Shown here one piece after another: positions 8,694 to 50,472 of a stretch of DNA of 64,000 nt (position 1 is its first letter; every line of letters begins with the position of its first letter). Below the pieces are notes generated by a model that saw only the letters and a program-made list of their open reading frames with translations, searched no databases and was not told the origin of the DNA. Source of the stretch: Filosporella fistucella (lineage: Eukaryota; Ascomycota; Leotiomycetes; Helotiales); NCBI GenBank assembly GCA_030077755.1, contig JAQJZZ010000007.1, forward strand, positions 1 to 64,000, in the 5' to 3' direction. The position numbers and the translations under genes were made by a program.

Positions 8694-9473
8694 TATAATA
8701 AGGTAGGATGGTTAAAAAGGAGGTAAAAGGGTTTTGGTTCTGGCCTTAGTGCCTAAGGCACCTAGCGTATATATATTCTCGGCTTTTGGCTTCTTAATTC
8801 TATAGGCAGTCATAATTCCAATTGATTTGCAATTAACCATTTTACCCCTTTATATTAGTAACCTACGTAGGGAGACAATCAAGGCTCCGTTATTACACGT
8901 CCTTATAGCTTGTAACTATATTCTTTTAATATGCTAGCGTATATACCCCCTAATTAGCGAATAATATAAGGAAAGGCTTTAAAAGCTATATGAGAAGAGG
9001 CTTTAAAGGCTATATGAGAGGAGGCTTTAAAGGCTATATAAGAGGAGGCTATATAGAAAGGGCCACCGCCATTCTACTGGATTCGAGATCAGAGAATAAA
9101 GGTCATATAGAAAGGGCCACCGCCATTTTATTAGATTCGAGGGTAGCTTGGATTAGACCCGCCGGGCGGGGAAAAAGGAATTAATATAAGAGCTATTATT
9201 AAAATTAGAGTTTATTATATAGTTAAAATTAGGTTTATTATACAGGGTGCTTTAAAGCTGCTTTCTTATAATAAATATAGTTAAGGGGCAATTATACTTA
9301 GGGAGGGACATATATAATAGGGTAGGATGGTTAGAAAGGAGGTAAAAGGGTTCTGGTTCTAGCCTTAGTGCCTAAGGCACCTAGCGTATATATATTCTCG
9401 GCTTTTGGCTTTTTAGTTTTATAGGCAATCATAACTCCAATTGATTCGCAATTAACCATTTTACCCCTTTATA
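8694..9473 (+). mobile_element. TRIM-like non-autonomous LTR element
   Basis: Two direct repeats of equal length (8694-8854 and 9313-9473, 161 bp each) flank only about 458 bp of non-coding sequence. The repeats begin TATAATA(A/G)GGTAGG and end CCCCTTTATA, consistent with TG...CA ends altered by RIP. The first is followed directly by TTAGTAACCTACGTAGGG, the same primer-site-like sequence as in elements B and C. The second is preceded by a purine-rich run (GGGAGGGACA), which gives plus orientation. The uninterrupted copy of element C (near 46610-46630) shows the empty site; AATAT/ATAT at the junctions fits a 4-5 bp target duplication. Terminal-repeat retrotransposons in miniature have this structure. 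Confidence 0.85.
8971..9145 (+). repeat. Internal tandem repeats of the TRIM-like element
   Basis: Three and a partial copies of a 24-bp unit (core AGGCTTTAAAGGCTATATGA) run from about 8971 to 9050. They are followed by two copies of a unit starting ATATAGAAAGGGCCACCGCC at about 9050 and 9105. The repeats create a short open frame of Gly/Arg/Tyr repeats that is most likely not a gene. Confidence 0.8.
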
Positions 9474-11318
9474 ATATTTAAAGTAATAATTCCTATTTTT
9501 ATCTAATTAAATATAATAGCTTCCTTATAATTTATAAATATTTATATAAGTAACCTTTTTTCTTCATTTATAATAGTCTTTCCTATTATTATTTATTCTA
9601 TCCTTTTTATTATAAGTCTGCTTCCTAATATATTAATTATAAATCTTTTTAATATTTATTCGCTAAATTTACTTATCTTAACATTTGGCTTCTCATCTTT
9701 TAATTTTTTAAGCCAATTAATTAATCTTCCTAAATTCGTTTTATTAAAATCTCGTAAGCTTATTAATTAAACCTTATTAGCGACTTTTTTATATATTATA
9801 TTAACCTTAAATAGTCTTTAGGGGTAGCGTTAACTTGGATTACCTTCTTTTCTTTTTTTAATAATAATAATAAAATCATTTACTTTAGTAATTCTATCCA
9901 TTTATATTATATATATATTAAATTTTACGTATAATTCCCTTTTTATATTTTTCTTCTTTTCCTTTTATCTAATACGTTGCTTTAACCTCGAATTATTACT
10001 CTATTCTCTATTACTTTAAGAGCTATAATATATTAATCCTAGGCTTTTAACCTTATTAACTTGCAATCCGTTTTATAAATTAATTAAACTTTTCCCGCCA
10101 TTTTTACTTCTTTGGCGCTAGCATATTTAATTTCATTTCTAGCAATTATAACCGTTCCTATTATTCCTTAAATATTTATAAAGCAAGCTTATATAATCCT
10201 TCCTCCTAAATAATAAAAGTTAAACTTCATTTCTAGCAAATATAGCATTCCTAAAAAAATCTCCTTTTAATAATAAGAGACTACTTAAAAGTTAATATAA
10301 TAAATAATACCTCTAATATTAATAAGGACATTCTTGATAAAGCCTATAAATGGTCTATTTTTATTATTAATAATCAAATAGGTTATTTGTCTTTTTATTT
10401 CTAATATTATAAGTTTTGCTTCCTTTATCCAATTTCTTCCTATAATATTAACCTCTATTCCTATATTAAGAATTACTATAACCTTAATTTTATTATTAAT
10501 TAAAACTTCTACTTTTGGTATTTTTATTATTAATATTAGGCACCTTTAAATAATAAAACCCATTTTAATAGCATTAACTTTAAGAATAGCTACTTTCCTA
10601 AATCTTTCTAATATTTGATTTTTAATTTCTCCTAAATTTTATAAGATAAAATTATTCCCTTTAATTTTTGGAATAATATATTTTTCTTAAGCTATTTTAA
10701 AGATATTCTCCTAAATAATATAAATATCTTATAAACGCATTTCTTTTTTTAAGAAAAGTCGATTAATGGCTTTTACTCTTACTTTTAGACTAATATATTA
10801 ATTAAGGATTCGGTCCCTATTTTTCTTTATTCCTTAATTTAAGGCTCTTTTGGGTTTCTTAATTATTAGCTTAATAACTTTATCTTTTAACTTAATTACA
10901 ATTTCCTTTATTTTAATATCCCCTTAGGAATCTTACTATTATAATTAGCTTTTATTAATTATAATTATATTAGATTCTTTTAAATCCTTATTATCCTTAA
11001 TGCTTAGGCGCTATAAAATAATATTATAATTTTATTCTCTTATTATTCTTCTTAGATTAATCCTTGGCTTTAAGACTTTTTTGGCTACCTTTATTATATT
11101 CTTAAAATATATAATTGGCTTCCTAATTCTAATAATTATACTTGATATTATTTTTACGTTTATTAAGTCTTCTTCCACTTTTAAGTCTAATTCTATTAGC
11201 GGCAATTATCCGGAAAGCTAAATCTTTTTAATTCTTACTAGCCTATCTAATTAAAGAATAGAGGTTAATTATAATAATAATATAGGTGATTGATAGCCTA
11301 TAAAGGAAATAGGTTATT

Positions 11319-14600: not shown

Positions 14601-16209
14601 ACCGTATCCGGATAAACCCCGCTTTAAAGGAATATATAACTTTTCAGATATAATATGGTTCTTATAAGTGCAAAGTGCTCCCCTTTAAATTATGCAATGG
14701 CCCTAGAACATATTAGAGGTATATAAATAATATTCTCTTTAATTTCCTAAACACATTTTATATGGCGTATTTGGACGACATCTTAATCTATTCCGAGTTA
14801 AAGCAAGACTATTAGGAATATATGGAAAAAGTATTAAAACGATTGCTAAAAGCTGGGTTATAAGCTAATATTAAAAAGTGCGAGTTCCATGTGATTAGAA
14901 CCAAGTACCTAGGGTATATTATAATTATAAACGGTATTAAACCGGACCCGGAAAAGGTAGCACCCCTAAAGAATTAAAAGTACCCAGAGACCGTAACGGC
15001 TATAAAGTCCTTCCTAGGCTTTTATAATTATTACCGGCAATTTATTTAAAACTTTAGGTTAATAGCCAAACCTCTCATTAAGCTCACGCGCCCTATTATT
15101 CCCTAGAACTAGACGGATTAGTGCCGGGACGCCTTCGAGTCTCTTTATACCCACTTGCTCTCTATTTAAAAGATTTATCACTTTAACCCCGAATTGCCTA
15201 TAAAACTAGAGATAGATTTATTAGATAAAGTAATAGCCGGAGTGTTTTCCCAATTATACTTAAATTAGTAATAATATCTTATCGGATTTTATTTGCATAT
15301 ATTAAATAGCTATAAACCAAATTAGGAAATCCATAATAAAGAGCTTTATGCAATTGTGGAATCCTTTTACAAGTAGCGCCCCGAGCTCATATTTATTATA
15401 AGCCGACTTAATATATACTCGGACCACCAATTATTGGAATACTTTATAATTACCAAGGTGCTTACCGCTAAATAGGCACGATGAATGGAATTCCTATTAG
15501 ACTTCAATTTTTAAATTAAATATACCCCCGGTAAAGATAATTAGAAGGCTAATATCCTTAGCCATAAAAAATAGGATTTAAAAGTTTAAGAGAAAGCGAA
15601 AAAGGATAGCCGCTTCCGAGTATTATTAGGTCCGGAATGACTCGATAACCGAATTAACTCCGAGTTGGCCTAAGAATATATTGCATCCGTTATAATACTC
15701 GCCCCGTTATTACCTAGTGACTAGAATCTAATATAGGTCCGAGATTTATTTAACCTAATAGAAAAGCTTTACTTAAATAATAGAGAGTCCTTTATTAACC
15801 TTAGGAAGTCTTTGCCCGAAGATTATACCATTTAAGACGGACTTTTGCTATTTAAGGGAAGACTCGTGGTATAAAGGGATACTCTTCTCTATACCCGGCT
15901 TATATCCAAATCTCATAACCAGCCGTCCACTGCCTATCCGAGCGGACTTAAGACTTATTAATTGCTCGCTCCTAAATATTATTAGACCGGCATGGGTTTA
16001 AATTATAAATGGTATATACGTAATTGCCATTTGTGCTAATATGTCCACTACCGATAATCCAAGTAACTAGGCATGCTCTACCCGCTACTAGTTCCTAATT
16101 ATCTTATATAGCACTTATATATGGATTATAAGGATTTTCCGAAGGATAAAAGCGGGTATAATCGGATCCTAGTATTTATTGACCGGCTTTTAAAGGTATT
16201 AGTTACTAT
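11640..16209 (+). pseudogene. gag-pol of element A, first part (gag to integrase core)
   Basis: Plus-strand gypsy polyprotein with RIP stops. A CCHC zinc knuckle lies near 13125 (CYGYNKFGYYKIDC, Tyr replacing Cys/His). The protease site near 13410 reads LIDIRANGYLF where DTGAN is expected. RT runs at about 14380-14800, including FVKKADKGLRF and AYLDDILIYSE at about 14765. An RNase H-like stretch (LEIDLLDKVIAGVFS) is near 15200. Integrase zinc-finger and core start at about 15950. The frame is cut at 16209 by element B just after FIDRLLKVLVTI, and resumes at 27765. Confidence 0.85.
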
Positions 16210-16415
16210 TATAAAGGGATAGGAAGTGTGCCGTCTAAGTGCACGATAAATAATATAATAACCAAAATAATAGGGGTGGTATTTAAAAGAAGAAGAAGGA
16301 TTATATTATTAAGTTATGCTCGGGCTATATTATATGTGAAGTGAGCACCGGAGCGGAAAAACTATTTACCGGTAAAACATATAACCTAAAATCACGGGGC
16401 TTTAACCCTATCACA
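16210..16415 (-). repeat. 3' LTR of element B
   Basis: 206-bp copy matching 27559-27764 with few differences, mostly transitions. Contains the conserved block CCGTCTAAGTGCACGATAAA. Confidence 0.92.
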
Positions 16416-16473
16416 TACGTCTTCCCCTAAGAATAATCGCCCCTTAACTATTCCATACCTACTTCTCCACGTT

Positions 16474-18987
16474 TTAATCCTCTATAAAGTAAAGACCCTC
16501 CTTATAGGCCTCCGTTAAAACCCCTTTATTTAATATATCCACATCTGGCTTAACCTTAGGCATAGGAGTTCCGGAAGCACGAGATCGCTCTAAGTGAAAA
16601 TAGAACGACTTCTCCTTAAACACACGCTTCTCCTCCTCTATTATATCCCTATATAAAGCCAAAGCCACACGCGTAGCTCTCTCACGTCCTTTTATAATAA
16701 ATCTGTGAGCAGCTTCCCTATTATTACCTAGTAATATGTTCCTCTCCTTTAAAACTATAGGTGAGCTCTAGCGTTTATAATATATAAGAGCATTAAATAA
16801 GGCCCTTAAACCCCCTAATTTAAAGCTTGCAGGAAATCTAAAGGATATAGCGCCATATTTATTAGCTAGCCCGGATGGCATAGCCATTGGAGCAGTCTAA
16901 TCTCTATGCGACTCGGATAGCATACGCTAAGTGCCTCCCTTAGTCACTTCCAAGTTCTCCTTATTATCCTATATGCCCATAAACCAGGGAAGCATTATAT
17001 ATCGCACCTTTATAGTAAGACCGGTAATACCATAGGGTATTAATGGCAACGTGATTCTCGCGTCTCCTGGCCTATAGGGTACGTTCCTCTAGCCCTCTAA
17101 TCCTAGAACTTTGGCGTCTTCTTTAGTAAAAAGCTAGTTAGTAATCCGATAAATAAACCCATTTATAGCCTATCCTCGAGCAATTACGCAATCCCACTAT
17201 TCTCCTAGCTTATGCTACATTTTAGGTAAAAAGAATATGCAATTCTCATCGTCCTCTTTATCTATCGATATTATTCCTTAAATCATGTGTACGCTACGCT
17301 ACTTGGCTAACAAGTCTGATATATTAAGATTGATATAATAAAAGTAAGTACCATCTCTAAGAATATAATACTTCGCATAATAGGGGTAGCTAACCAAGCG
17401 CTATATAGCATTAGGTTTTAGTGCCGCGTATAGCATATAATAGGCATGATCTTGACGCATTAATTGCTAAGCGATCGAGTAAAATATATTTCTTAGCTAG
17501 CCAATATTCTTGCGACCATTAATTTCTCAAAGATGCTAGCGGTATATATTAAACTCATTTAACATCTATTTCTTTAACTCCGGGTTCTAGAACCACTAAT
17601 TAAAGAGCGGGGTAATGACGGATCCGTTAGCCTTCCATTTAAGAAGAATCGTGGGGTCCCAAGCATTTAATATCTTTTTTTAATTAAAAGCAAAATCGGT
17701 TCCTTGCTTATTGTGAAAGAACTTATAGGGGCCTAATCTATTAGAAGGTCTTGGTGGTCGACTTATAACTCGAAACCATTAATATATCGCCTCATTAGTC
17801 TTTAGTTTTCCGATATCCAAGCAGTGATCTAGCACGTATTTTAACCGATAGTCCAAAAGAGGTCGATCTAAGCGTTTAATATAGAGCCCAATTTGTCCTA
17901 CCATGAGCCGTCCATGTGGAAAGTAGACCTTTTTAAAAGTGTGCATCTTAGCTAATAGCTTTATCCTAATCATAATCCCAAGTGCCCTCTTCTTTTTCAC
18001 CGCAATTTTCTAGCCCTCCATAATATCTTTTATATAGCGGCACTAGCTGCTTATTGCCTATATATCCTTATTATCTTCCCCGCCATTCGCTAGTTCTTCC
18101 TCCGCATTATTTATTTCTTTTTTATCTAGATTATCCATGGGTCCTAGAACTATACCGTATTCCTCCGCTTCCTCTTATAGCATGCGAATTCCTTTGGATT
18201 TAAGAGCCCGACCGCTACTTTTAAGATTCGCACCTAAAATTGGTAAATTTTGACCCGCCGGGCGGGGTGAAATTTCTCTACCACTATTATCACTATCCAG
18301 CTATATCGGGTCTTCTAGGATAGGTTCTTTAATCATTCCTACACTAATCTCTTCTAGAAATCCGCAAACGCTAAAGGTTATTCCTAGCTCTCGTGCTTGC
18401 CATAAAGAAATTTCCTCTACCTTTTCGTTCCGAATCTTCCATGCTTTATTAAAATCACTAGACGTGAGACCCTTAACTGGCTTAGCCCATTTCTTTTTAC
18501 TAGTGAGGCATTAAATTGCTGCAATGTTCACTAGTCGCACTAATTGCTCTAAGCTATTAGCAAGTCGAGCCAGCTTTCTATATGCGTAAAGGAAATTTAG
18601 CGAGTAGTTTATTTTATTTAACCATTTTATAATATTATTATCCTTTCACCTATTATATATGGCCTTCTTTACCTCATGCGTTCGGTCCCGTCTCTTCTTA
18701 TTTTCCTTAATAATTAATAGTGCTTGTGCCCATTTATTAGTAAACTCGTCCTCCGATATATGTGTCCGGTAAGCTCCCCCTTCTTGCATAAATAAGAATA
18801 CTTCCTTAATTATATTTAATGCCCTTTCGTAGTACCATAGCATGTCTTAAAGAATGCCTGCCTTAACCTTATACCTATCTTATTCTAGTATACCCGTAAG
18901 GTAATCCTTTACCTCTTGCGCATTCCGAAATATTATGCTAGCGGTAAGAATAGTGCTCTTAGATTAAATGTCTAGTGCATTCTCCAT
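16474..18987 (-). pseudogene. Element-borne 2-oxoglutarate/Fe(II) dioxygenase-like ORF, RIP-broken
   Basis: From the ATG at 18987 (MENALDI) one reading frame runs 838 codons to a stop at 16474 without a frameshift. It is interrupted only by TAA/TAG/TGA at sites where Gln or Trp is expected. Residues 551/553 read YIN in TYFYYINLN; one RIP-type C-to-T and one G-to-A change would give the metal-binding H-x-D. Then comes ENCIFFLPK (about 583-589), like the GxLxxxPG stretch of phytanoyl-dioxygenase-type enzymes. GDARITLP follows at 641-648, then IPYG with Y652 where the distal His is expected. R662 is exactly ten residues later, the usual position of the 2-oxoglutarate-binding Arg. The N-terminal 400 residues I do not recognise. 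It lies downstream of integrase in element B and diverges from the lysine-rich frame. The function call is inference from motif spacing; a relation to transposon-linked TET/JBP-type enzymes is only a possibility. Confidence 0.6.
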
Positions 18988-19596
18988 GGCTGTGGTATGA
19001 CCTATTTTCTCATATAGTTTAAAGGGAAAAAGGTTAAAAAGGAAAAGAAGTTTTTAAGGAAAAGAATCCTTAAATAATTGATTTAATTCGGCCAAAGGTG
19101 AATTATATACGGCTTATAGTTAATAGAAACCATTAAGCAAATAATTTAGTTTTTAACCAATTATTCGCCTTTGCCTCTTACCCTATACGTCTTCCTACTT
19201 AATAAATAAACTTTTTAGCGCTAACCTCGACCTTGATAAACCAATCAAAAATAGCTCCTAAGGACTTAAAGAAGTGTGCTGCCATTTACGGCAAGGGCAA
19301 GAAGCAAGCTAGTATTATTATGAAGGCTGCTTTAACGGGTACTCGCTTTTTGCGGCGTTTATAAAGTTTAACTTTAATTAATAATTTGCTTTTGCTTTCT
19401 CTCCTTTTTAAGGTTTAGCAATTCGCTTTTATATAATAATAAGCCTCATCCTCGTCCTATTTTAAGTATAAATACCCTTCCCTATTCCCTTTTAACTTTT
19501 TCTTTTTAATAATTTTTTAAGTTAGCCAGGTAGGTGCCTCTTTGCACTATTCCCTCCCCCACTTATAATAGTCCCCTCCCTAATTAGTCTCCTATA
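18988..19596. promoter_or_regulatory. Spacer between the two divergent accessory ORFs of element B
   Basis: About 600 bp, AT-rich, with no reading frame I can support. Because the flanking frames point away from each other, this is the only place for their promoters. The right half (19500-19590) is pyrimidine-rich (CTCTTTGCACTATTCCCTCCCCC), as in many fungal promoters. No defined motif was recognised. Confidence 0.35.
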
Positions 19597-20949
19597 ATAT
19601 ACCTCAAGCGCACCAAGATATCTTTACCCAAGCACCGGAACGATTTATCTGCTCCTAAGCACCTCGCTCCTATTACCCCACCTGGTGGAGACGACTAACT
19701 AGATATAGCTCCTTAAGAGCCCGCTACCTCTAACCCCATGTATCATGCCATTAATACCCTCATGCATAGCTTAACTAATCTTGCTCTTACCTGGCTCGTA
19801 GCCGAATCTATTAAGGCTAGCATGGCTCCTACTTTAAGCATTACCGAAGCTGCTAGCCACTAATCCACTACCTAAAACCCCGCTATTACTCCCAAAAAGG
19901 AGTCTTTTAACGGAAAAGCTCTTACTTCTTCTCCTAATAACCCTATCACTCTAGCCGGTATTAAATTCACTGCCACCTATATTAAAAATGCCAAACTCTT
20001 TAATCTAGACCCCGCTAATTATACTCTAGAATCTCTATATAATGCCGGAGTTAAATACCGCCCTCTTTTTAACCACCTCTTTGGCATCTTATGGTTTGCT
20101 AACGCCACATCCCAAATCATATAAATAGAGGTCTACTTATTTAAAGCCACCTTTAAACCTTACCTCAAAATCCAACTAGCCCATAGCTATCTCGGCTATC
20201 CACTTATCGGTCCTAATAGCGGTGTTTTAACCATTCTCGGTGAGGAATATAATGGTAGTAACTTTAACCTGCCTAAGTCTTCCTATAATAAAGCCATTAT
20301 TACCGACCACCTAAATTATTAATAGTGGATTAAACATCTTCTAAATGCTAATAACCCCGTTATAATCAAGCCTCATCGCCACTACCTTGCTCCACCCCGT
20401 CCTTTTATTACTAAAAAGGCTTCTATGTCCGCCACCCCTAATGTAAAAGACCATAATGCCAAAGATTCTCCTATCTCTTCCGGAAAGGGCAAAGGAAAAG
20501 CCATTATAAAGTCATCTATCGCTGGTTCTTTATCTATTAAAAAGACTAGGAAGCGTAAGGCCCCCGAATCTAGCACTATAAACGATTTTAATGCCATTAT
20601 AGACGCCGATCCCACTTTATCTAAGAAGCCTAAGCTTAGAATAACCTATACCCCTATAGCTAGCTCTCCTCTTACTAGTTCTCCTCTTGCCGCTCCTATT
20701 AAATAAACCAAATCTAAGAAAACTTTACCACTTCCATACCCTAAAATTAAGCCTGAATTAACCCTAAAGAAAGCTAAAAAACCTAAGAAGGCTAAGAAAT
20801 CCAAGAAACTTGCCCTTATTCCATTTAAATTATTTAAACGAATCATAACTAAGAAAAGTCTCGCCAATCGCGTACCCTTAGCCGCCTATAACCTAGATAA
20901 GGAGGCCGGTGGTAAATCTAAGGATAATAAAGAGGCAAGCGAGTCTTAA
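19597..20949 (+). pseudogene. Element-borne lysine-rich protein ORF, antisense to gag-pol, RIP-broken
   Basis: A plus-strand frame of about 450 codons runs from an ATA at 19597 (probably a mutated ATG before TACCTCAAG) to a TAA at 20949, with only about nine point stops and no frameshift. The middle is globular-looking (AGIKFTATYIKNAKLFNLD, LFNHLFGILWFANATS, SYLGYPLIGPNSG). The last 180 residues are strongly basic and low-complexity (KGKGKAIIKSS, KKTRKRKAP, KKAKKPKKAKKSKK). That tail suggests a nucleic-acid-binding or nuclear protein, but no domain was recognised. Codon use shows the same decay as the rest of element B. It diverges from the dioxygenase-like frame. Function unknown. Confidence 0.6.
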
Positions 20950-21089
20950 ATATGAGTCTTTTCCTTTTAGAGTAATACGCTTTCTTAAGAGCTAGATAAA
21001 AAAAAGCGTAAATGAAATAAATACCTAAGTAAGATAAATAATAAATATAATGAAATAGAGAAATGAAATAAAATTAAATACCAATTCTC

Positions 21090-24000
21090 CCCCCCCCCTT
21101 TTTTATAAATAAAACTTTTACGTGAGCTATTTCTAGGCGTATTATAATTTATCCCGCCGGGCGGGGTAAAATTTCCTATTATCAAATCCACCTGCCATAT
21201 ATTAATTGCTATTATTTAAGATAACCCCAAAACTCCACCTAGCCGGTATCATTACTTAATAAGCTTCCTATCTTCTCATTTTTGCCTCCCTTCTCTCCAT
21301 TCCTTTAATTGATAGATTTAGCTCCCTTTATTCCTCCGGTGGAATTTTTATAATTTCTTTACCATTTCCCCTCTCCTACTTTATTCCTTTATTATTACTA
21401 TCTCCGCCGCCTGCTTTTATATCGCCTTTAATTATTACGGGGTCCCAAACACCTTGCCTTTGCTTAAAGACTTTTATTTTATTACTAGCATATGTCCTAT
21501 ATAATCTTGTCCTATTTATTTCTTTTAAAAAGTATATTCCCTTATCGGTAACCACCTCATTAATCCTAAACGGACCTAGCCACCTATATCCAAGCTTTAA
21601 TCGCGAGGATATATTTACCTCTTATAGTGCGTCATATAGCAAAATAACGTCTCCCCTTTTTATTTCCTGGATTTAAATCTATTTGGACCCATTAAATCAA
21701 TCCTTGCTAGCAATGCGCATTCTCTTTTATTTTGCCGCGGCTTCCTCTAAATCCTCATCCCTTAGCTAAATTTGCCTGGCCCTAATTGCTAGGAGCTCTA
21801 CTATGCTTTAAACGCTTTCCTAATCTAAAATTCTCTATATGGGGATCCGTATTTTTATAGGTAACACCGCTTCTAATCTATAATTTAAGTAAAAGGGCAA
21901 GAACCTAGTCATTATCTTTACCGTCGCTTTATCCGCTAATAGCATAGCATGCAAATTATCCACCCACTTTCCCTTTCCTCCGTCCATTATCCTGGCTAGG
22001 GCTTTAATAATTGGCTTATATCCTCTTTCTATTATTCCATTTATAATAGCATAATAAGCAGAGATAATAACGCGTTAAACACCGTACTTTTGCGTTAACT
22101 TCTTAACTAGGCCTTTATTTTCTAGCCCTTCATTAACAATTAGCTTCCCAAACACCCCGTATCGGCAAATCACATCTTTTCATATAAAATTGGCTACCAA
22201 TTCCGAGGTCGCCGCACTTAATGCTCGTCCTTTAACCTAGCCTAAGAGATTACATCGTGCTAGGACCAAGTATTTCTTCCCTTTATATTCCGGCATATAA
22301 ATAATATCCAGGCCTATCTTTGACTAAAGGGCACTAAACCAAGTTAGATATAAAGGTTCCTCTTGCCGAGCACTACTCCATAGCTGGTACCTATCGCACC
22401 CTAAGATAAACGCCTTTATGTCTTCGTAGCAAGAGTCTTAGAAATATCTCTCGGCCACCTTTTAATAGGTGCTTTCTCTTCCTTTATGCCCGGTTTCATT
22501 ATGGAGTGCTTAAAGAATTGCTTCTCTTTTAGCTTTTAAGTTAACCACTCTTCTTTTTAGCAGACCCTTATTTGCCCTTTGGAATAGCACCCCTCTCTTA
22601 ACCCTATAATTGAGCGCTCGTGTTTTAAATTATCTAAAATCGGATTTCGCGACTTATAAAGGCCTCTTAAGTGTTATTAAAAATTTAGCTATTAGCCTTA
22701 AGTCGAGACTCTAGTCCCCTTTTAGCAAAAATGCTTGAGCAGGTCCAATTCTAACCTCATGATATGGAATAACTCGATAAGAACCCATGTGAGCATTAAT
22801 GAAATTATTAATATCTTCCTCTTAAGCCTCTAGTCTTAGCTCCTCTTCTATTGCCGGTCGCCGAGATAGCCCATTTATAGCGGTATATTTCTTCCTAAGA
22901 ACGTGCTTAACCTTAAAATCAAATAGCCAGATCCATGCTATTTAACGAGTTACTAATGCTCCTGGTAAATCGGATGTAATAGAATTTAATTAAGCCACCA
23001 GGATAGCTGCATTAGTCTCTAATAAGAAGTGCACCTTATAAAGATATTTTCGGACCTTCTTAAGAGCCTTTAAAACGCCTCTATACTCTCTTTTTATCGC
23101 GTTATAGTTTTACTTAGCCTATGACCACTATCTACTATTATACCGGACCGGGTGCCTTTTCTTATCTATATCCAGCTATATTAAAACCATTCCCCACCCG
23201 TGAAGACTAGCATCCACTACTAAAATAATCAAGCTAACACCTAAGGATATATCTAATTGCACAAGCGCCGGTGCCGAAGTTAGAGCCAGTTTTAATAAAT
23301 CCATAGTAAGGTTATACTCGTCCATTTATTTAAACTTTACCCCCTTATAAAGTAGTCGATAGAGCGGTATCGCGATAATTGCAAAATTCTTAATCCATAT
23401 CCGATAATAGACGCAAACCCTAATAAACGCCCGAATCTCCGTTATTAAAGAGCACTTCTTTTAGTTAATAATTTTTAGCACTTTCTCACTATCTGGCGAG
23501 CGTCCCTATATATAATACACATATTTAACCAGCTTGATTCCATTTATTCCGAATTGTGATTTTGGCCCAATTATAGCTCCTACCCTCTCGATATTTGCCA
23601 AAACTTGGTCTAGATTAATTAAGTGCTCTAAAATAAACTTTTGAATCCTAGGGGTAGCTTCCTCCTTATTATACCTCATACGTGGATCAAGAATGGGAAT
23701 ATTATCCATAAAGATTTTATAATATTTAGGAATATAATCTTTTAAAATTACCTTTCCTGCCCTCATAAATTAAGCGATAAAATTCGTAATACCCTATACC
23801 AAAGTTATGTGTCTAACTAGCCCTCGAGACGTTATAAAGGCAATTATGTCCCTGCTATTCGGGTATAGAGAGATCTAATTATATTTAGAGTAAAAATTAA
23901 TAAATAATATAATCTGGCATCTAGCAAATTCTTCCGAGATTTTATCCATATCCGGCGGTAGGTTAGCGTCCCGAATAGTAATAGCATTATATTTTATAGC

Positions 24001-27000
24001 CGTATTAACCAATCTATGCTTTTTATTCTTTTTCTTTATAGCAAATCACTAGTTCCGGTAAGGTCCATGATAAAACTCTAGTATACCGGCCTTAAGTCGC
24101 TTATTAATTATCTCATCGATCTCCCTTGCCAGATATCGCGGCATAGCAAATCCGGGGCTCTACTAGGCTTTATGTGGCATAGTTTATATCTCTTACGGCG
24201 GAATGATATCCTCATTAATCCGTCCGCACTTTAAAAACTCAAATGCAATGGCCTTTTCCCTTTTAAATAATAATTCTAGTAATATTTCCCTTTCTCTTTC
24301 CTATAGCCCGTCTCCTATAATTAACTTCTTAATCCTCTCTTCTATTAACCTTTTTCCCCTTTTTATATCTAAAAACTTAGGGATTAGCCATGCATCCCAT
24401 CCATTCCTTAGCTTTACCGGCCCTCTCACTTGCTCCATTTCTAGCTTCTTTTATTTCCAATTTGGGTTTCCACTAGGCATTAACCTATTAGAAACACCTT
24501 CTTTTATAGGCATAACTTTATTAGCCTTATTCTTATATGCACCAAAAACGCTAATAATAGGAAAGAAATGCTTCACTTAAAATAAAGATATAAAATTAGT
24601 CGCCCTTAAATAAGTAATATCGCCCCTAATATCTTTTATATTTATAGAAAAAACTTTTACTCCTTCCTATTCCCGAATACCATTATTTAACCCGCCGGGC
24701 GGGGTGAAATTTAAAGCCAATATCCCTTTCCCATTAACCTTGGTGCTAGGCTTACCGGGCAGCCGCACCGCCTCTAACCCGGCTATAAGTTTCCCTAAAC
24801 GGCAGCTCTCCCCTAACGGGAATTAGCTATATTAGCAACGCAAGCTGTGGCTTGCTTCGTCCTCTCATTATTAATAACCGTTATAAATTGGAAGCTATCC
24901 CTATATAAAAAGGAAAGTAGGCTAATAGTAATAAATGGCTGCCCTAATATAATCTCGTTTTACGGGTTATTTATGGTAAAGAAGTTTGTTATTACTTTTA
25001 TGCTCCTAATCTTAATAATAACGTTTTTATAAATCCTAGTAAACCTTTTTTTTTTACCGCTATAACCAATTATCCCAAATTAAGGGTTAGGTCTAATTCC
25101 TAAGCTAGCCCGCTTAGCTAGCTTGGTGTCTATGATATCCGCCTCGGCCCTATAATCAAGTAGCGCTGGCTTCTTAATCCCTCTAATCTTTACCCGGAGC
25201 TTTGGACTAAATATAATAAAAGGTGGTTTAGTTTCCTCTATTATCGCCGAATTTACCTAAACCTCATTGTCCTCCGCTTTTCCCTTTATATGCGCCGGCA
25301 TAATAGTGGCTATATTCTTAAATAATATCTTTTATAGCATATCCGAATAGGCCAAAACCTCCCTTCTAATAATCCCTTTAAGCTCATTATCTAAGATCTT
25401 ATTCATAAGTTTTAAGGGATTGGTAGAGCGCTTTAATATATCTAAATATCGCTCGATTCTTTGAGCTACTCTTGGTCCTACCTTCTTTAAAGCCTCGGTC
25501 TACTCTTTATTAATATCCATTTCCTTTATTTCGCTACTTTTAATCACCTTATCCTCCGCGATTGCCTTCCTCTAGTTCCCGGCCTTAGGGATCTTTGGGA
25601 TAGCCATTTTCCTTTTCCTATTAATCCTTTCCTTTAACACGCGCCTTGGATTCTCCTATCTTTCCTCTTCCGCGGCCCCTTTCCCTCCTCGGAGCATGGC
25701 AGCTGCGATAGAGATCCCCGAATTAATAATTTCCCTAACCTCTTTATTATCCGATTTATCCATTTAAATAATAGTGCTAAATATTCCACCCACATTTATA
25801 TGCCGGACCGGCGTAGGCTAAGGTGGTGCTTATTCCTAGAAACGACGAATGATATCCTTTCCTTTCTCCCCTTTAAGAATATAAGCGGACCTTCCTCCTT
25901 TACCTGGTTTCCCTAAAAGCATCCTTCCTTTAGCGGTTTTATAAATAAGGCCTCGTTTATAATTAATCCCAAAATCGGGATACTATCATTTAAAATAACC
26001 CTCTTTTAAGTAATAATAATAGCGCGTTATTTGAGGACGATACGCTTCTCTAGTAAAGGCACCTATATTAGGTATTAGTCCTCGAGGCGGAGCTGAAGTA
26101 TTAACCTTGCCTATAATATTGGTTAGATAGGCGCCACGATTCTCCCCGCTGGGCGGGGTAAACTGAACCCGCTAGCCTCTTATCCCTATGTCCGTAATTG
26201 CTCTAGCAAATATAGCTAGAGATTGGAAAGCCTTGGTTAGATCCTTAATCGTTTCTTTAAAGACTGCCTAAGCTCGCGGGTCCATAATAGGAACCGTAAA
26301 CTGCTTCTCCCTTAATATTTAAACCGTATTTCCGAATTAATCCACCAATTAACTTAAATTCTCGCGCCCTTAAGCATTGGAATTAAATTCTTAAACCGTC
26401 TTATTATTTGCTAAAATCTTAATAATAGTCTTAACCATATTAATATATATTATTATAAAGGGAAGCTCGATATTAATTTTATTCTTTCAAATAACCTTGC
26501 TCCGAATCCCTTAAGGAAGACTATTTAAAAACCATATTCCCCTTATATAATCTTTAATTTAACCCTTCTTTTTTAACGCAAATAATATAGCCGTGAATTA
26601 TCGGATATAGGCACGCGTCTTAGCCTTATTACCGCGCTTCTTATCCTTTAAAGCTTTTAGGAAAGCACGAGAATTCATTTATTAAATAGCGTCATAATCC
26701 TTATATTTTATCGTAAGTGCTCTAACCAATGCATTCTAGTCCTAATTAACCCATTCCTATAACGTTTTAATATACTAGCCTATAGCCGTGGCATAATATC
26801 TCGGTAGCCGTCTAATCTTCCCTTTTTTATCCCATTTAGCATCTTTAGCCTAGTCTTTAAACCTTTCTAGGAACTCTATAATATTATACCCTTTGAAATA
26901 TAGAGCCCCAGGACTATGCGGAAGGGGTATGATAGGCACCACCCTCATAGATATCGTAGCTATTATTTAAGTAATCTAATCCTATACTATATCCGGTTCT

Positions 27001-27400
27001 TCCCTAAGAAGAAATTTTAATTCGTTTAAAAAGCTTATTAGTAATATCGAAAATCGTAAACTTAATAACCTATATTCTAAAAACTTAAATAAGACTTATA
27101 TACTTAATAGAACCACTATTAAAAGGGTTTATAAGACGGATATAATTAATCCCCGTAACTTAATTTCCATACCATATTCCTTATTTCCTTTCTTATTATC
27201 CCATTTTAACTTTTCCCTCTTAATCTTAATAAGCTTTGCCCGTACTCGCTTTCGCTTAATATTTATTCGTTTACCCATTTCCACCGTCACTAATTTTGGC
27301 TAGGCTTAGCTCTATATTAATAGGAGAGTCCCACTCTATAATTAAAATTTAATATAATAATTTGCCCCTATATTAAGGCCTTATATCATAGCCTGGATTC
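21090..27400 (-). pseudogene. gag-pol of element B
   Basis: Minus-strand gypsy polyprotein with many RIP stops; gag lies toward 27400 and integrase toward 21090. The clearest block is RT at 23506-23766: KIFMDNIPIL at the catalytic site (DN where DD is expected), followed by RIQKFILEHLINLDQVLANIE and GPKSQFGINGIKLVKYV, typical of fungal gypsy RT. The integrase C-terminal region at 21240-22050 includes KLGYRWLGPFRINEVV. Boundaries are approximate; gag was inferred from position and coding look. Four copies of a GC-rich palindrome (CCCGCCGGGCGGG) lie in element B, two of them inside this span. Confidence 0.75.
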
Positions 27401-27558
27401 CTAGTCACTAGACTTTTAACTCTAGACCAATTATTACCGCTTTTTTTTAATTAACTAATATACTTATAACCGATAAAACCGACTCCTACCTCTTAAATAC
27501 GTCCTTATTAATATGGATCGAGTGTATATTATCTTTTATTCCCTACGTAGGTCACTAA

Positions 27559-27764
27559 TGTGAAGGGATAGGAAGTGTGCCGTCTAAGTGCACGATAAAT
27601 AACATAATAACCAAAATAATAGGGGTAATATTTAAAAGAAGAAGAAGGATTATATTATTAAGTTATGCTCGGGCTATACTATATGTGAAGTGAGCACCGG
27701 AGCGGAAAAACTATTTACCGGTAAAACACATGACCTAAAATCACGGGGCTTCAACCCTATCACA
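27559..27764 (-). repeat. 5' LTR of element B
   Basis: 206-bp LTR. On the minus strand it is followed immediately by the primer-site-like TTAGTGACCTACGTAGGG (plus-strand 27541-27558). Target duplication CTAT follows at 27765. Confidence 0.92.
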
Positions 27765-29000
27765 CTATCCCCTATTATTAAGATATTAATGCCCGCGGCA
27801 TAGCAATGCTATTTATTTAGTGGATATACCGGTTTAGACACTATCCGGAAATAATTATATTAGATAGAAGACCCTAATTCGTTTTATCTTTTTAATAAGA
27901 GTTTTGCTATTTAATTAGGGTCTAAATCAAATTCTTTATAGCTTATTATAAGGAGACCGATAATTAGATAAAGATTATGAATAAGTATATTGATTAAAGA
28001 TTGCGCCTATTTATTAACTATTACTAGGATAATTGGAGCGAGTTAATCCCCTTAATTAATAGAGCCTAAGCTACTTTACCTCATGCCTTTATTAGGATAT
28101 TACCTTACCGACTCCTTACCGGTATTAAACCCCGAATAAGCTAGGATTGGAATACCCTTAAGGCAATTATACCCCTAGAAAAGCTCAATTTTAGAGAAGC
28201 CAAAGCGTTAGCGGATCGGATAAAAAATGGATGGGAGCTAGCTAAATCCAATATGCTTTTGGCTTAAGAATAAATAGCGAGAGCTATAAACCGGCACCAA
28301 AGGGAGATTGACTAATAAGTAGGTAATAAAGTTTATTTATTTATTAAAAATCTTAAGACCCAAAGGCCTAGCCGTAAGCTTGCAAGCCAATAGGAGGGAC
28401 TATTTCCGATCCTAGCCCGAGTCGGTAATTCTTATAAGTTAAAATTGCCTAAAGGATTAAAAATCCATAATATATTTATATTAGAGTTATTATTTAAAGA
28501 TCCTAAAGATCCCTTACCCGGATAGGAAACGGAGAAGCCTCCGCTAACCATTATAAAGGGATAAGAGGAGTGGGAAGTAAAAGACATTAAAGCTATACAG
28601 CTATTCTAAAATACCCTAAAATATTAGATTAGCTAGGTCGGATATGACCCGGACCTTACTTGATATCCCGCGTTAGATTTAATAGGTTTTCCTTATAAGT
28701 TAAGAGACTTCCACGCCGTTTACCTAATAAAGCCGGGTCTTTCCCGAAACCTATCCGAATGAATTTTAATATGGGAATTAGGGGAAGATAATTATGATTA
28801 CTTAAAAGATAATAAACCGGTGATAAAGGAGAGGCAAATTAATTAACTTTATTTGCTATTAAATGCTTATGCTAAGCTACTTAAATTCCGCTTAGAAATT
28901 ATCCTAATAACCGAAACGCCTCTAAAACTAGCCCGATTTAAGTTTTATTATTATAAAACCAAGGAAATAGTCACGCGGTAATAGAAGCACTTAAAGTATT
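27765..29000 (+). pseudogene. gag-pol of element A, second part (integrase end and chromodomain)
   Basis: The integrase frame cut at 16209 resumes here: PEIIILDRGPQFV near 27850, followed by the last part of the core (ELIPLINRAQATLPHAF near 28050). A chromodomain-like segment at about 28615-28730 reads ISWVGYDPDPT followed by FPYKLRDFHAVY, the pattern of fungal chromodomain gypsy integrases. From about 29000 to the 3' LTR at 30266 I see no supported coding sequence. Confidence 0.8.
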
Positions 29001-40646: not shown

Positions 40647-41170
40647 GGCGGACCCCTTGACGCCTATCCTCCAAATCTTAGAAGCTAGGAGTCCTTATCA
40701 AAACTGATGTGACTACCTAGCGACCAAATAATTTTCACAAACATGACGTGAGTTCAATATGAATACAGCCTGAAGGTGACTTTACATCGCACCGTAAGCA
40801 TGCTGCTGCAGATCTCTCCGTCGCGCCCTATCATGTTATTGAAGTATTTCGCCGCTTACTCATCAGATGCAACTTTCTCCGAAAGATGGGGCGTCTCGGC
40901 TGTGGGGGCAACCATCTTCTGCTCCAGTTGCTCCAATCATAAATCAACTCGTTGCGATAGAGGATAATTCCAGATAAGAAATGAGAAGGCTTCTTCATCA
41001 CGTTGACTGTGTACAGGCAAATGATCAAGCTTGTCATCCACAATTTGCTCAAATTGACCCTGCTTCAAATCTACGCAAGCTTCCCAAAATAATAAAGCAT
41101 CAAACAAAATTGAGTAGAATATTCTTAGTATAACCCTAATAGAGTGTCAAGACTGATTCTATCTATATAT
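40647..41170. other. Intergenic region before element C copy 2
   Basis: About 520 bp upstream of the transcription factor gene. No gene supported. A 73-codon minus-strand open frame at 40831-41052 has no recognisable features and is probably chance. Confidence 0.4.
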
Positions 41171-41367
41171 TGTAAATAGAACCACAAATAATATAAATAA
41201 TAAAAAGGGTAAGCAGCTGGTGGTCTTTAGTAATTATGGCATTATTGTCTAAGTCTCTAAGTATAGAAGGTCGAGCCCTGGAATAATATAATAAAACACT
41301 AGAAAATAGCCGAACACGTGCCACACGTGACTAGTATAATAAACACTGATTTTAGAGCCCTTTTACA
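41171..41367 (-). repeat. 3' LTR of element C copy 2
   Basis: 197 bp; matches 50473-50669 with few substitutions. Preceded on its coding strand by a purine tract. Confidence 0.93.
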
Positions 41368-44200
41368 CTTGCCCCCACCCAGTTTTATTAAACGAGTACG
41401 TTTAAGTCTTCCAAAATAGGCCCAAATAACTCTAATTATAAGGAAATGCTCAAAAGAATAAAGTAATCCCTAATATTAAAACCTAAAAAGAAAATATCCC
41501 GTGACCTTCCTTAAAAGTTTACTTTTAAAGAATAGCGGACAATTGGCTATTTATTCTTAATTCTAGGCTCACATGGCTTCTCATAGCGTATATAAACCCT
41601 CTTATTCCTTTTAACCTCTTAAACTTAACATTTTTCCTATTTTCTTTATAACTTTTCGCCTACCTCTTTTATAGTGGCCTATGGCAATAATGATCCTTCC
41701 TTAAATACCCTTATTGCTATTGCTATCCTCAATTATAAAGGTCTATTGCTAAGGTAGGTAATAAAAAGATGCGCTAATAATAAATCGAGATTTTTATAAT
41801 TACGGGGTATAATAATACTTGAAGATAAACACTTTTGGCCTTTTATTAAAGCTAAGTTTTGCCATCTAATATATCTTTTATCCCTTCTTTAACTTTTTAT
41901 CAAGTCTTGCTCCTTTATTAATAATTATTATCGCTATTTAATATTATCATTATCGTTTGGCGCTCTCTTAAAGTAATCGAATTAGGGTAATTATATAAGC
42001 TAAGTACCACTTTATTATAATAGTCTCATGGTAATCACGCATAGGGTTTTCACACTCGCCTAAGGTAGCTAATATGTCCTTAGTTAATCTTAGGCCAAAT
42101 ATGGTTTCTTTTACGGTTAATTGATTTAAAAGTATAAATATAAGGTTTAAAAAGTGCCCGGGCACCTCCCTTATAGCTATAATAACTTAATAAGTTTAAT
42201 AAGCTTTTATTATAAAAGCAAATAGCCAAAGTCCATAATAGCCAGCCACTAATTAAAGATATATTTCCTCTATTAAAGGAGATATCCTTAAAATTTGCAT
42301 TAATAATCCTTTAAGAGTTTTACGTTTATTAAAGAAACTTTAGTGACGATAACGTTCTTAACCGTGAATAAGTCTCTCTCATATTCTCGCACGGATCCAT
42401 AAAGAGGCACTCTCCCTAGCGAAAGCCAAAGGTGCATGTAATATAGGATAAGCTATTGAGATAAGTATAATATAAAAAAAAAAGAAGCTATTAAGCCCTC
42501 TATAAAAACTCTTAATATATACCAACCAGGGTAATATACCGCTATTTGAACATATAAAGCACGCCTTGCATAGCTTAAATAACCTATGAAAGGCACTTTA
42601 TGGAAATAGAGGCTTAATATACTTTTAATCCCTTAACCCATAATTTGGCACTAGCTAAAAAGATCCTTATAAAACTCTTTATAATAATAAAAATAAATAA
42701 TATTATAAGGATAAGCAAAGAAATATAAGGAAAATAATTAAACTGGCTGCGCTACTAGTGCTTACCGACATTTACCTATTTATATAGAGCCCTATTACCT
42801 AATACCTCATTATCCCATATATACATTTAAATTCGAGGTTCTCATTTGAGGTTATTAACCTATTTATATCCTAACCACTAATATATAAGTCAAAGTTATT
42901 AAAGGAAGGAAGGATTAAAGGAAGGAAGGAAGGATAGAAAATGGAATCTAAGAAATATAAAAGACGGTTAGCCAATTAATTCTCTAATAAGCAGTGTGCT
43001 AAGAAGCTAATGGGGAATATTAATTATTTAAGGGAAAATACTTTATTTTTTAAGCTAGAATAAATGTATTGTAAACCAATTATAAAGATTATTACCTTTT
43101 TAAGTCTTAATAAGGGGTAATTGCTAGCTATAGCTGCTTTTCCTTAAGATTTGAGATGGCGACTATTTAAAATTAAGGGGAATTCCGAGGGCTTTATTTT
43201 ATTTTTAAGGGTTTTTCTTTTAAGGGCTTTCTTAAGATTTACTTCGGTGTGTCTTATAATAGGTTCCTGGTCTAATCCTAGTCTCCTATTACCTTTTTAC
43301 TTTAATTTATTAAAGCAAATCTAATATTAAACCCTTTATGGAATTGTAGTTATAAGAAAGGTGTCCTAAAACCTTACTTAGGGTATAATTGAGATATCTC
43401 CTAATCCTATTTAAAAGAGGTTTAAAGACACCAATTTAAAGCGCTTATAGAGCTTTAGCTCTCCTGCTTATTTATAATTAAAGTCGGCCTCATCTTATAT
43501 ATTAGGGTAACGCGAGCTAATAGATTTTATATAAAAGCAAATAAAGGATATTATATCGGTGTCCTTTATAATTTTTAACTATTAAGGTAATCTTTTAATT
43601 ATCGCATAAGGATAGCGCTTATAGAGCTTTTGATTCTCCCGCTATCTTAAAGAATGGCTCTTGCTTAGGGCTAAGTCGAATATTAATATAGCATTGCCTA
43701 GGCCTAAAGATAGCTAGCTAATTTGGTGTGATTTAAAATGGTCGCCGCTAATAATATTTATTAATTATCGCCCTTAGAGTCTTTATATTTAAATTTATTT
43801 GAGTTATTTAACCCTTTTAAGCTATTGCTATTATTATTATCCTATGCAATAGGGTTTATTATAATAAATCCTTCTCTTCTTTAAATAAACCTCTTTAGCC
43901 TATTTCCTGTAAATAATCCTTATAATTAAATATCATCTAGCTCTTTTAGCTTAAAATATCCTTTTATATTATTTGCTAAGGTAATTCAATAAGGTCCCCT
44001 CTATTGGTATTTGAGTTTAATATTTAAAGATATATTAATTGCCTTCTTTATATTAAGAATTAGAATAATGTTATTAACTTTAAGGCTATGTGTTTATAAT
44101 TTATAAGTTTTATTAAATGCTTCCTTTCCTAATTCCCTAATTCTTCTTTTTCTTAAGGTGATTTCTTTTATGTCTTTATCTCTCAATTTTAGCTATCTTG
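41368..44200 (-). other. 3' internal region of element C, unassigned
   Basis: About 2.8 kb between integrase and the 3' LTR, longer than a gypsy element needs. The minus-strand segment 41968-42240 looks coding: VPGHFLNLIFILLNQ, then ETIFGLRLTKDILATLGE and NPMRDYHETIIIKWY, with stops only at Gln-type codons upstream. I do not recognise the protein. Small GA-rich repeats (AAGGAAGGAAGG) lie near 42901-42932. This may be an accessory frame comparable in position to those of element B, but its extent is unclear. Confidence 0.4.
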
Positions 44201-47200
44201 CTTATATAATTAAAAAATTAACTTGTGTTCTTATTTTCTTTTAACCTAGCATTCTTTAAATAGGATGCTATATCTCTATTAAAAGAATTGCTTCCCTTTT
44301 ATAGAGTAAAAAGAATGATATAATACCGGTTAGTCTATATATGCTAATTTGGCATGCTAATAAAATTAAATAAAATTTCTTGGTTTATTTCTATATCCCT
44401 CCTCTTATTATTTTTACTAGCGATTCTAGAATATCCTTATATTCCCTCTTAATTATTCCGTTTACTTTTAAGTTATATGCTAAAATCTATATTCTTTTAA
44501 TTTTATACTTCTTAGTAAACTCCATAGCAATACCCTTATTTTTTAGACCTCCATTTATTATAAGTTTCTTAAAAATCCCATGCCTATAAATAATATCCTC
44601 CTAAATGAATTTTGCTATTAAAGCGGCGTTTGCTTTTATTAAGGCTCTTCCTTTTAGCTAGCTAAATAAATTATCTTTTATTAAAATGAAGAATTTCTTA
44701 CTATTATCATTTAATATATAGACCACATTAAGACCTATTTTCTACCACATACCAGTTATTTAAGTTATATAAAGTGGCTTATTATACTTTAACCCTAATC
44801 TCATTTAATATTCTTTATAGCTTATGTAAAAGGCTCTATAATTAGCAAATATACTATTTTACTAAAATTTATTCGCGAATCTGCGATATGTCTCTTCTTT
44901 TTTATAATAACCACCCTTAATATAATATTCCGATATGACTTGGTTCCTCTTTTTAGCTCTATTCACGATTAATTTTATTAGGATATCCTTAGAGGCTCTC
45001 TTATAAAGTTGCTAATCTCTAATAATGAAATCCAAGGCTTTATTCTTAAAGATTTTAAATTATAATATAGTTATACCGCCCGGATTTTAGAGTATTATAA
45101 GGAAGGAAGCAATTATTTAAGATTTAGGTAAATAGGATCTATTTAGGTATTGCTTTTAAGTTAATATTATATTATATATTAATATATAATAAATTCTTAC
45201 GTTAATTTAATTATCCAGGTCTTTTTTATTTTCTCTTTCTTCTTTATCTCCTGGGAAAATTGGTCTTTTTAATAGGCCATTTATAGTAGTATTCTTGGTT
45301 CCTAAAATGTATTTAACTTTAAAGTCTATTAATCTCATCCAAGCTATCTAGCGTGTGAGTATTACTCCCGGCAAGTCAAATGCGGCTCCATTTAGCTACG
45401 CTATTAGAATTATAGCGTTTATTTCTAGGATAAAATGCACTCCATATAAATCTCCTCTCATTTTCTTTATAGCTTTTAAGGCACCTCTGCATTCTCATTT
45501 AGTGGCATTATAATTTTATTTAGCTAAAGACTAGAGTCCGCTTTCATATCTGCTTAAATGTCTATTTTTATCTTTATTAAGCTATTAAAGTATAGCACCC
45601 CATCCTTTTAGACTAGCATCCACTATTAAAATAATCTCTCCTAAGTCCTTCCCGTACCTTATTTTTATTAAGGCTAGTGCCGATATTAGCGCATATTAAA
45701 TTATAAGAAGCGCATCTTTTTAAGGTTACTCTCATTTGAAGTCTATTCCTTTTTTTATTAGAGAATATATCGGTTCTATGATTTTAGCATAGTCTTTAAC
45801 CTAAATATAATAGAAAACACAAATGCCTATAAATGCTTTAGCTTTTATGACATTATCGCATTTTAACCATTTTAAAATTTTATTAATTTTGGCTATTTCT
45901 AGGTGTCTCCCTTTTAAATCGGTAATATAGCCAATAATTTTTAAGCCTGGCATGCAGAATTATAATTTGATTCTAATAGTCGCTCTAGCTCTTTTTAATC
46001 TTTTTATTATTAGGTCTAAGTTTTAAAGATATTCTAATATAAAACGTCTAATTCCTAGCGCCACTTCTTTATTATTATAAAAGAAATATAATCCTTTTAC
46101 TCCGATGTTATTTATATATGGTAGCGTGATATATAGCACGTAATTAAGCAAAATCTTATAAATTACTCTATAGAATTATATAATTGAGTTGATATTACCT
46201 TAAGGGAGTCTTATTAACCTAATGAGTCCGATTAGGGTATATATAGCAATTATATCTCTATCCCTGAAATTTAATAATATTTGATTATAGCTAGAAAATA
46301 AGTCTACTAATAATGCTATTATTATTCCTATGAATTCTTCTAAGAACTAGTCTATATTTAATGGAATATTCGCATCCCTAATTATAACTCAATTCATTTT
46401 AATTGCCGCTATAATAAGTCAATAGCTCTTCTTTTCCTTCTTTGCTATTAAGAACCACTTGTTTTTATATGGACCATAATATTATTTTATTACTTCTCTA
46501 TGCATTCTATCTCTTAGCATCTTAATAACTTCTTTATTAAGCGCTTTTGGCACTAGAAATGAGCTTTTTTATTATGCTTAATAAGGAATGGTCTTAATTC
46601 TAAGTGGTAATATAATATCTAAAGTAATAATTCCTATTTTTATCTAGTTAAATATAATAGCTTTCTTATAATTTATAAGTATTTATATGAGTAACCTTCT
46701 TTCTTCGTTTATAATAATTTTTCCCACTATTATCTGCTTTATCCTTTCTATTATAAGTCTACTTCCTAGTATACTAATTATAAATCTTCCTAATATTTAA
46801 TCGTTAAATTCACCTATCTTAATATTTGGCTTCTCATCTTTTAATTTTTTAAGCCAATTAACCAATCCTCCTAGATTCGTTTTATTAGAATCTCCTAAGC
46901 TCACTAGTTAAACCTTATTAGCGACTTTTTTATATGCTATATTGACCTTAAATGGTCTTTGGGGGCAGCGTTGACTTAGATTACCTTCTTTTCTTTTTTT
47001 AATAATAATAATAAAATCATTTACTTTAATAATTCCATTTATTTATATTGCATATATATTAAATTTTGCGTATAATTCCCTTTTTATATTTTTCTTCTTT
47101 TCCTTCCATCTATTACGTCACTTTGACCTCGAATTATTACTTTGCTCTCTATTACTTTAAGAGCTATAATGTATTAATCTTAGGCTTTTAACCTTATTAA

Positions 47201-49885: not shown

Positions 49886-50472
49886 GGCTATTATATCTTA
49901 TATCTTTTTTATTAAATAATGATTTTTTTAAATGTGGGTATTAAGCTTATAAAGAGTCTGGTTTGATTCCCCTATTCCTTCCCCTAAAATCTCCTTATAT
50001 TCTAGGAATAATACCCCTTTTTTTAATATTTAAAGATATTTCGCCGGGATATTTAAAAGGATTTCTACTAATTTAAGCCATAAGTTATAAAGTATAATAT
50101 AAATTCTAATATATCTTAAAATGGTCTAATATATTAATTCCTTTATTAGACTCTAGGTTTTAAATGGTCTTAAAAGGTCTAATCCCTTATATAACTCATC
50201 TCGGTCATTAATTGCATATGGAATTATAAAGTTTTTAAAGGCGTTTTATAGCAAGAGCTTTTTCTCTAACGTTATTATAATAAGCTTAGACCTTTAAATA
50301 TTCTTAGGGTCTCTAGCATAGCCCACATTTTATCTATATTATAGCATCTTATAAATATTAATAGCTTTAAAGCTTTTATTCCTATGGCTAGAAATTATGT
50401 AAATAAATTTCTTATAATAAAAGGGTGTATAGAGATAGAGCCTTTGGTTTTTCTCCTTACATAGGTCACTAA

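Follow-up and report, generated by a model that had tools for sequence, protein, structure and literature searches.

The stretch of DNA analysed here, referred to as the window, comprises the first 64,000 nucleotides of contig JAQJZZ010000007.1 (C6) from the assembly GCA_030077755.1 of the fungus Filosporella fistucella. It begins with CCCTAA telomere repeats (positions 1–99) and is the left end of the contig. On its minus strand, positions 16210–27764 hold an 11.55-kb Ty3/gypsy retrotransposon bounded by long terminal repeats (LTRs), and two accessory genes lie between its integrase region and its 3′ LTR. Gene A (16459–18987, minus strand) is in the same orientation as gag-pol and encodes an 842-residue Fe(II)/2-oxoglutarate (2OG) dioxygenase-like protein. 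Gene B (19618–20949, plus strand) is antisense to gag-pol and encodes a basic protein of 443 residues. The two genes are arranged head to head, and their start codons are separated by a spacer of 630 bp (18988–19617, equal to positions 2084–2713 of locus L023).

The element belongs to the Ty3/gypsy group by its LTR ends and target-site duplication, its domain order and its tRNA primer site alike. The initial annotation had described equal 206-bp LTRs, a target duplication and a minus-strand gag-pol, all of which were found. Comparison of the 3′ LTR (16210–16415) with the 5′ LTR (27559–27764), both 206 nt and on the minus strand, reveals nine differences, all of them transitions, and the 4-bp duplication CTAT flanks the element at both ends (16206–16209 and 27765–27768). 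A copy on contig C19 largely preserves the original state. Its LTRs begin with TGTG and end with CACA on the element strand, and its gag-protease and pol are both open frames with the gypsy order gag, protease, reverse transcriptase, RNase H, integrase according to Pfam. The reverse transcriptase, RNase H, protease and H2C2 domains score above their own curated cut-offs, and rve falls below its cut-off with an E value of 0.00036. In the window, gag with its CCHC knuckle and the aspartic protease (24783–27290, minus strand, placed by colinearity with the C19 copy) are read in a frame different from that of pol, which encodes reverse transcriptase, RNase H and integrase (21202–24816, minus strand, the lower end set by the same colinearity); both regions are broken by stops. 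The primer-binding site (27541–27558, minus strand) is altered in the window, and the 18 nt adjoining the 5′ LTR in the C19 copy are complementary to the 3′ end of the host tRNA-Arg(ACG), including CCA.

The mutations of the window copy are the product of repeat-induced point mutation (RIP), and the C19 copy is nearly untouched. The two copies differ at 656 of 5,391 aligned sites without a single transversion, and all 656 changes from the C19 to the window sequence are C>T or G>A. CpA accounts for 432 of these changes, a context that holds 28% of the cytosines (754/2,675). When the window was compared with the copies L021 and L022, 570 and 613 differences were counted, respectively, with zero transversions in both cases. 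Across an alignment of 21 rows, every row except C19, the window included, is RIP-mutated in gene A or gene B where it covers them. RIP accounts equally for the broken gag, pol and primer-binding site of the window copy.

The accessory frames had been placed at 16474–18987 (minus strand, 838 codons) and 19597–20949 (plus strand, 450 codons), back to back across a 600-bp spacer. Both frames and their divergent layout are real, but their limits had to be revised from the C19 copy, in which both are free of stops over 842 sense and 443 antisense codons. The stop at 16474 was created by RIP, so gene A extends to 16459; gene B starts at 19618, its ATG being changed to ATA in the window, and the spacer measures 630 bp. 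The window copy of gene A contains 31 internal stops within 16474–18987 and 32 up to its natural end, and that of gene B contains eight. Other rows that cover a whole frame contain 6–58 in-frame stops in gene A and 1–15 in gene B. The description of these stops as transition-type was confirmed: CAA, CAG, TGG or CGA occurs in another of the 21 rows at 71 of the 72 stop columns of gene A and at 14 of the 15 of gene B, and the one leftover column in each frame has CGG in other rows.

Because RIP makes transitions and no transversions, selection was assessed on the transversion columns of the 21 aligned rows, with transitions dropped. In gene A, 43 of the 57 transversion columns lie at third codon positions, and the ratio of nonsynonymous to synonymous changes is 18:39 compared with 2107:418 sites, which corresponds to a ratio relative to sites (N/S) of 0.09 (Fisher p ~1.6e-17, assuming independent columns). 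For gene B, 28 of 47 columns lie at third positions and the changes are 24:23 against 1061:268 sites, giving an N/S of 0.26 (p ~2.7e-5, under the same assumption). The rarer class is present in at least two rows at 37/57 columns in gene A and 32/47 in gene B, indicating that the transversion events are partly inherited. The distribution of indels follows the frames as well. Leaving out those of 100 bases or more and the alignment gaps at the outer edge (16210), indels shared by at least two copies number zero in gene A and three in gene B, all multiples of three; beside the frames there are five in the spacer, of which two are multiples of three, and nine after gene B, of which none is, amounting to 2 of 14. 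Two observations count against selected coding frames. The density of transversion columns per site is 0.023 in gene A and 0.035 in gene B; the spacer and the LTR each give 0.019, and the region following gene B gives 0.037. Changes are thus no scarcer in the frames than in the spacer, and the selection argument rests on codon position and N/S. Moreover, a single base has been inserted into gene A in one copy (L034) and into gene B in another (L021). The purifying selection that the initial annotation proposed to look for was found on both frames and, together with the C19 copy in which both are open, confirms its claim that both coded for protein.

We then considered whether the 4.7-kb segment with the two genes is constant in relatives of the element and whether it has terminal repeats of its own, as a nested insertion would. 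The genome searched was the fungal assembly of 45.77 Mb in 19 contigs, which contains about 20 copies of the element family. A search with the LTR returned at least 42 matches (40 of 56 candidates scored), among which eight pairs are spaced 11.3–11.4 kb apart (C6, C9 twice, C11, C12, C15, C18 and C19, the last truncated by the contig start). This count by spacing leaves out LTR matches 1.0 kb and 19.3 kb apart on C6 and 13.4 kb apart on C2; the two that are 1.0 kb apart, on C6 at 1.66 Mb, enclose no segment match. All eight pairs contain the segment. Its 2.9-kb centre has 25 matches in the genome, 19 of which cover 2,458 or more of the 2,901 bases, with identities of 79–100%. Loci were fetched around 20 of the 24 segment matches outside the window, and 13 of these 20 follow the window colinearly from the LTR (or its edge) up to and including the integrase end; the incomplete or rearranged ones are L028, L031 and L036–L040. 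No terminal repeats bound the segment.

Since it lies within all eight LTR pairs, the segment is part of the element and not a nested insertion. That it might be a separate insertion or an assembly composite is suggested by its unusual length and nothing more, and this is hardly credible given its presence within LTR pairs across seven contigs, its lack of terminal repeats and a protein divergence that resembles that of the flanking pol copy by copy. A nested insertion and frames that arose by chance were likewise rejected on the eight LTR pairs, the missing bounding repeats, the colinearity, the selection and the frame-keeping indels. We regard the architecture of the element and the purifying selection on both genes as nearly certain.

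Gene A very probably encodes a member of the Fe(II)/2OG dioxygenases. Its AlphaFold model, which is good when built with 122 sequences and poor with nine (a pLDDT confidence score of 57), predicts a double-stranded beta-helix with a helical N-terminal part. The HxD...H iron triad and a downstream R are found in 40 of 40 sequences of a chosen set (the D in 39 of 40) and in at least 90% of 122 rows, and a CxC...CxxH site is also conserved. Among the 50 structural matches shown, the best are DUF1479 proteins, followed by GriE, SnoN, EctD and proline hydroxylases. With DUF1479 proteins (Candida GIG2, YbiU) and PhyH dioxygenases gene A shares the predicted fold and the active-site residues; it differs from them in showing 12–13% identity over the fold and in adding the helical N-terminal part with CxC...CxxH. 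These nearest folds, as their entry titles also suggest, act on small molecules or have no assigned function. The likeness to DUF1479 is one of fold: in Pfam, PhyH (PF05721) alone was matched up to an E value of 10, with no match to the DUF1479 sequence family, HMMER filters dropping weak matches. The PhyH match itself (E 0.0029, 18.4 bits) remains below the curated cut-off of 22 bits, and 7 of 40 relatives match PhyH at E≤0.001. TET and JBP are absent from the Pfam matches and from the 50 structural rows shown, which does not exclude either.

Gene A is a member of a broad fungal family with the CxC...CxxH site that numbers at least 163 proteins, the named ones mostly annotated as 'hypothetical' or PhyH. 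In the host genome, 27 of its 29 matches coincide with or adjoin an LTR or segment match of the element family, and the other two are short remnants. No relative was detected in viral contigs, scanned with one sequence and with an alignment (A2), or in prokaryote genome contigs, and a sequence-profile search of the PDB gave nothing better than weak rows for helical bundles, MAK16 and ORC1 (E 0.3 at best). An Env-like role was considered for either gene and rejected, as neither protein contains a membrane-spanning segment (hydropathy averaged over 19 residues peaks at 1.17 and 0.79).

The gene B protein has an isoelectric point (pI) of 9.3; its tail is more basic (pI 10.0), with 39 K or R within the last 184 residues. 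Among 7,995 scored candidates, no homologue was found at E≤0.001. Within the genome it has 26 matches, two of which are distant and lie outside the element family. The one at C12:2033541–2033996 is 31% identical and has a 274-codon open frame with no Pfam match; aligned with gene B it shows 26% identity and a common core, GHP...PD..V.TI.GE..NGG. The other, at C9:1551445–1551753, is 34% identical. The C12 relative may be a host gene ancestral to gene B, or the reverse may hold.

The gag-pol transcript cannot yield gene B, which accordingly would need an antisense promoter. Gene A, the third gene in the sense direction, would most simply be expressed from the same spacer. The layout makes it probable that the spacer is a shared divergent promoter, as had been supposed. 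The C19 copy has a TATAWA site 151 nt upstream of the gene B ATG and none toward gene A. A lysine-rich open stretch of 52 codons runs toward gene B upstream of the TATA-like site. Its interpretation as an additional upstream exon of gene B was rejected, two copies having a 1-bp deletion within it at 19318.

The initial annotation called this architecture unusual for a Ty3/gypsy element. It is uncommon indeed, but its antisense half has precedents in plants and in the fungal element Boty (PMC11963269, PMC7264820, PMC8365987). Boty of Botrytis cinerea carries the antisense gene brtn (Zhao et al. 2011, as reported in PMC7264820 and PMC8365987), so that in the passages concerned it resembles our element as a fungal LTR element with an additional antisense gene between pol and 3′ LTR, a place that gene B shares. 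It differs in having one antisense gene and no dioxygenase, and other BcGypsy types are described there with further predicted open reading frames (ORFs). The plant elements Retand, Grande and RIRE2 also have antisense ORFs between pol and 3′ LTR, that of Grande with its own promoter (PMC11963269, PMC7264820); their proteins are without clear relatives or of the TRP28 type, and the passages on them mention no dioxygenase. Gypsy elements of Phalaenopsis likewise have a primer site for tRNA-Arg and an extra ORF that encodes an Fe(II)/2OG dioxygenase, whereas they are plant elements of 25 kb whose enzyme is described as an AlkB-type 2OG-dependent dioxygenase (2-ODD) active on N6-methyladenosine (m6A) RNA (PMC9289625). 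By comparison, gene A has a fold nearest to DUF1479 and an extra zinc-like site, and our element has a second gene, in antisense. Fungal mobile elements with a dioxygenase also include those that carry TET/JBP genes, for which a role against methylation or hypermutation has been proposed (PMC12730594); they differ in being DNA transposons, and gene A is not recognised as TET/JBP. In section 4.2 of that article the author reports having found no retrotransposon with a TET/JBP dioxygenase and discusses the reasons (PMC12730594). Other fungal gypsy elements possess an extra enzyme domain or ORF, namely a dUTPase domain or an additional ORF without assigned function (PMC2864245), but the dUTPase is inside Pol, and the passage describes neither a dioxygenase nor a divergent gene pair. 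Among the matches listed in full-text literature, no fungal LTR retrotransposon with a dioxygenase gene was found; on those matches, what is new is that a fungal LTR element combines a DUF1479-like dioxygenase with a second, divergent gene.

Retrotransposons are commonly held to need gag and pol alone, and a dioxygenase and a second gene kept under selection point to a specific barrier facing the element. RIP is an obvious candidate, as a methyltransferase-dependent hypermutation that destroys repeats. Because the fungus has RIP, and genes with DNA-methylase domains are present in its genome, action against host repeat marking would be the most economical use of the two genes. We propose that the element replicates as an ordinary gypsy retrotransposon and would additionally supply a dioxygenase and a basic partner protein, both made from their own transcripts begun in the spacer, independently of the LTR. 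The gene A product would oxidise a host mark or macromolecule used against the element, be it a methylated nucleic acid (DNA or RNA) or a protein of chromatin or one that binds RNA; the gene B product would be a nuclear partner or regulator that binds nucleic acid or chromatin, and their joint effect would be to postpone the silencing or RIP of new copies. To this explanation as a whole, with selected accessory genes, spacer transcripts and an anti-silencing use, we give about an even chance. The anti-silencing role taken by itself is less likely than not, though the most likely of several. Several findings weigh against it. All aligned copies but C19 are RIP-mutated, so the accessory genes give no lasting protection. 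TET, JBP and AlkB are not among the 50 structural rows shown, which does not exclude them, and the fold does not indicate a nucleic-acid substrate. Gene B matches nothing in Pfam, NCBIfam or the PDB, and its role is therefore guessed from composition.

The structural matches to DUF1479 proteins and then to GriE, SnoN, EctD and proline hydroxylases, with PhyH as the nearest Pfam family (below its cut-off), would also suit a hydroxylase of proteins or small molecules that renders some other service unconnected with silencing, such as the modification of Gag, integrase or a host metabolite. We consider this possible but rather unlikely, as the CxC...CxxH site and the large helical N-terminal part exceed what typical small-molecule hydroxylases have, and it is hard to say what metabolic advantage a retroelement would gain. 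The distant relatives of gene B in the same genome (C12:2033541 and C9:1551445) and the breadth of the gene A family could instead reflect two captured host genes that are carried without benefit to the element. The purifying selection on both frames weighs strongly against such passengers, as do the common indels that keep the frame, the presence of the segment in all eight LTR pairs and the 27 of 29 gene A matches at or beside those of the family, which makes this an unlikely origin. Gene B and its transcript might also dampen or time gag-pol expression with gene A in a secondary place, a role of the kind suggested in the passage concerned for the antisense genes found in plant elements and in retroviruses (PMC11963269). 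The stronger constraint on gene A (0.09 versus 0.26) and its far greater number of detectable relatives render this quite improbable.

If the anti-silencing role is right, it might extend to the CxC...CxxH family at large, whose members would be retroelement accessory enzymes of RIP-active fungi that undo a silencing mark with a divergent DNA- or chromatin-binding partner. We regard this generalisation as doubtful; were it true, the family would be to retrotransposons what the TET/JBP genes are to fungal DNA transposons. The element offers a concrete and testable case with a dioxygenase type other than TET/JBP, and it gives a large family of unexplained proteins a first genomic context.

Two further features of the family copies were noted. 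Five of the eight LTR pairs begin within 20 kb of a contig end (C6, C9 at both ends, C18 and C19), which suggests that the copies gather near chromosome ends. The C19 copy also contains a GC-rich palindrome, CCCCGCCCGGCGGG, four times, in gag, at the pol start, between pol and gene B, and in gene A, and where it falls inside open frames it reads through. In the window it occurs at six places (18254, 21153, 24691 and 26145, plus 7047 and 9158), amounting to 12 matches over both strands against 0.06 expected, and all 17 exact genome matches of a 19-nt version fall at copies of this element family.

A genome search with the C19 pol recovered its own family at 54–100% identity and then other gypsy families at 32–50% (43 of 92 candidates scored). 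Among the sites scored, the other families (pol identity of at most 50%) have no detectable homologue of gene A or gene B. The sole lower-identity pol site within 5 kb of an accessory match is C9:19513, and that match belongs to the family copy at C9:3319–14877. The window itself contains a second Ty3/gypsy element (41168–50669, minus strand) with LTRs at 41168–41367 and 50470–50669 that are 95% alike; its pol (44034–46940) is 36% identical to that of the first, and its primer-site sequence is similar. No long frame is visible in the at most 2.7 kb between its pol match and its 3′ LTR, a stretch part of which is the integrase tail and which is so heavily mutated that an old accessory gene there is not excluded.

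Elsewhere in the window, an AT-rich end region contains a 164-nt direct repeat (8694–8857 and 9313–9476, 93% alike, copies 619 nt apart), perhaps the LTRs of a short element. Two alike tRNA-Arg(ACG) genes were encountered in the host, at positions 1400–1520 of L057 (C7, about 2357430) and 1498–1572 of L058. The C7 gene, which ARAGORN does not call, carries a 49-nt insertion in its D arm; the insertion starts with GT, ends with AG and holds TACTAAC, and in these letters it looks like a spliceosomal intron within a tRNA gene.

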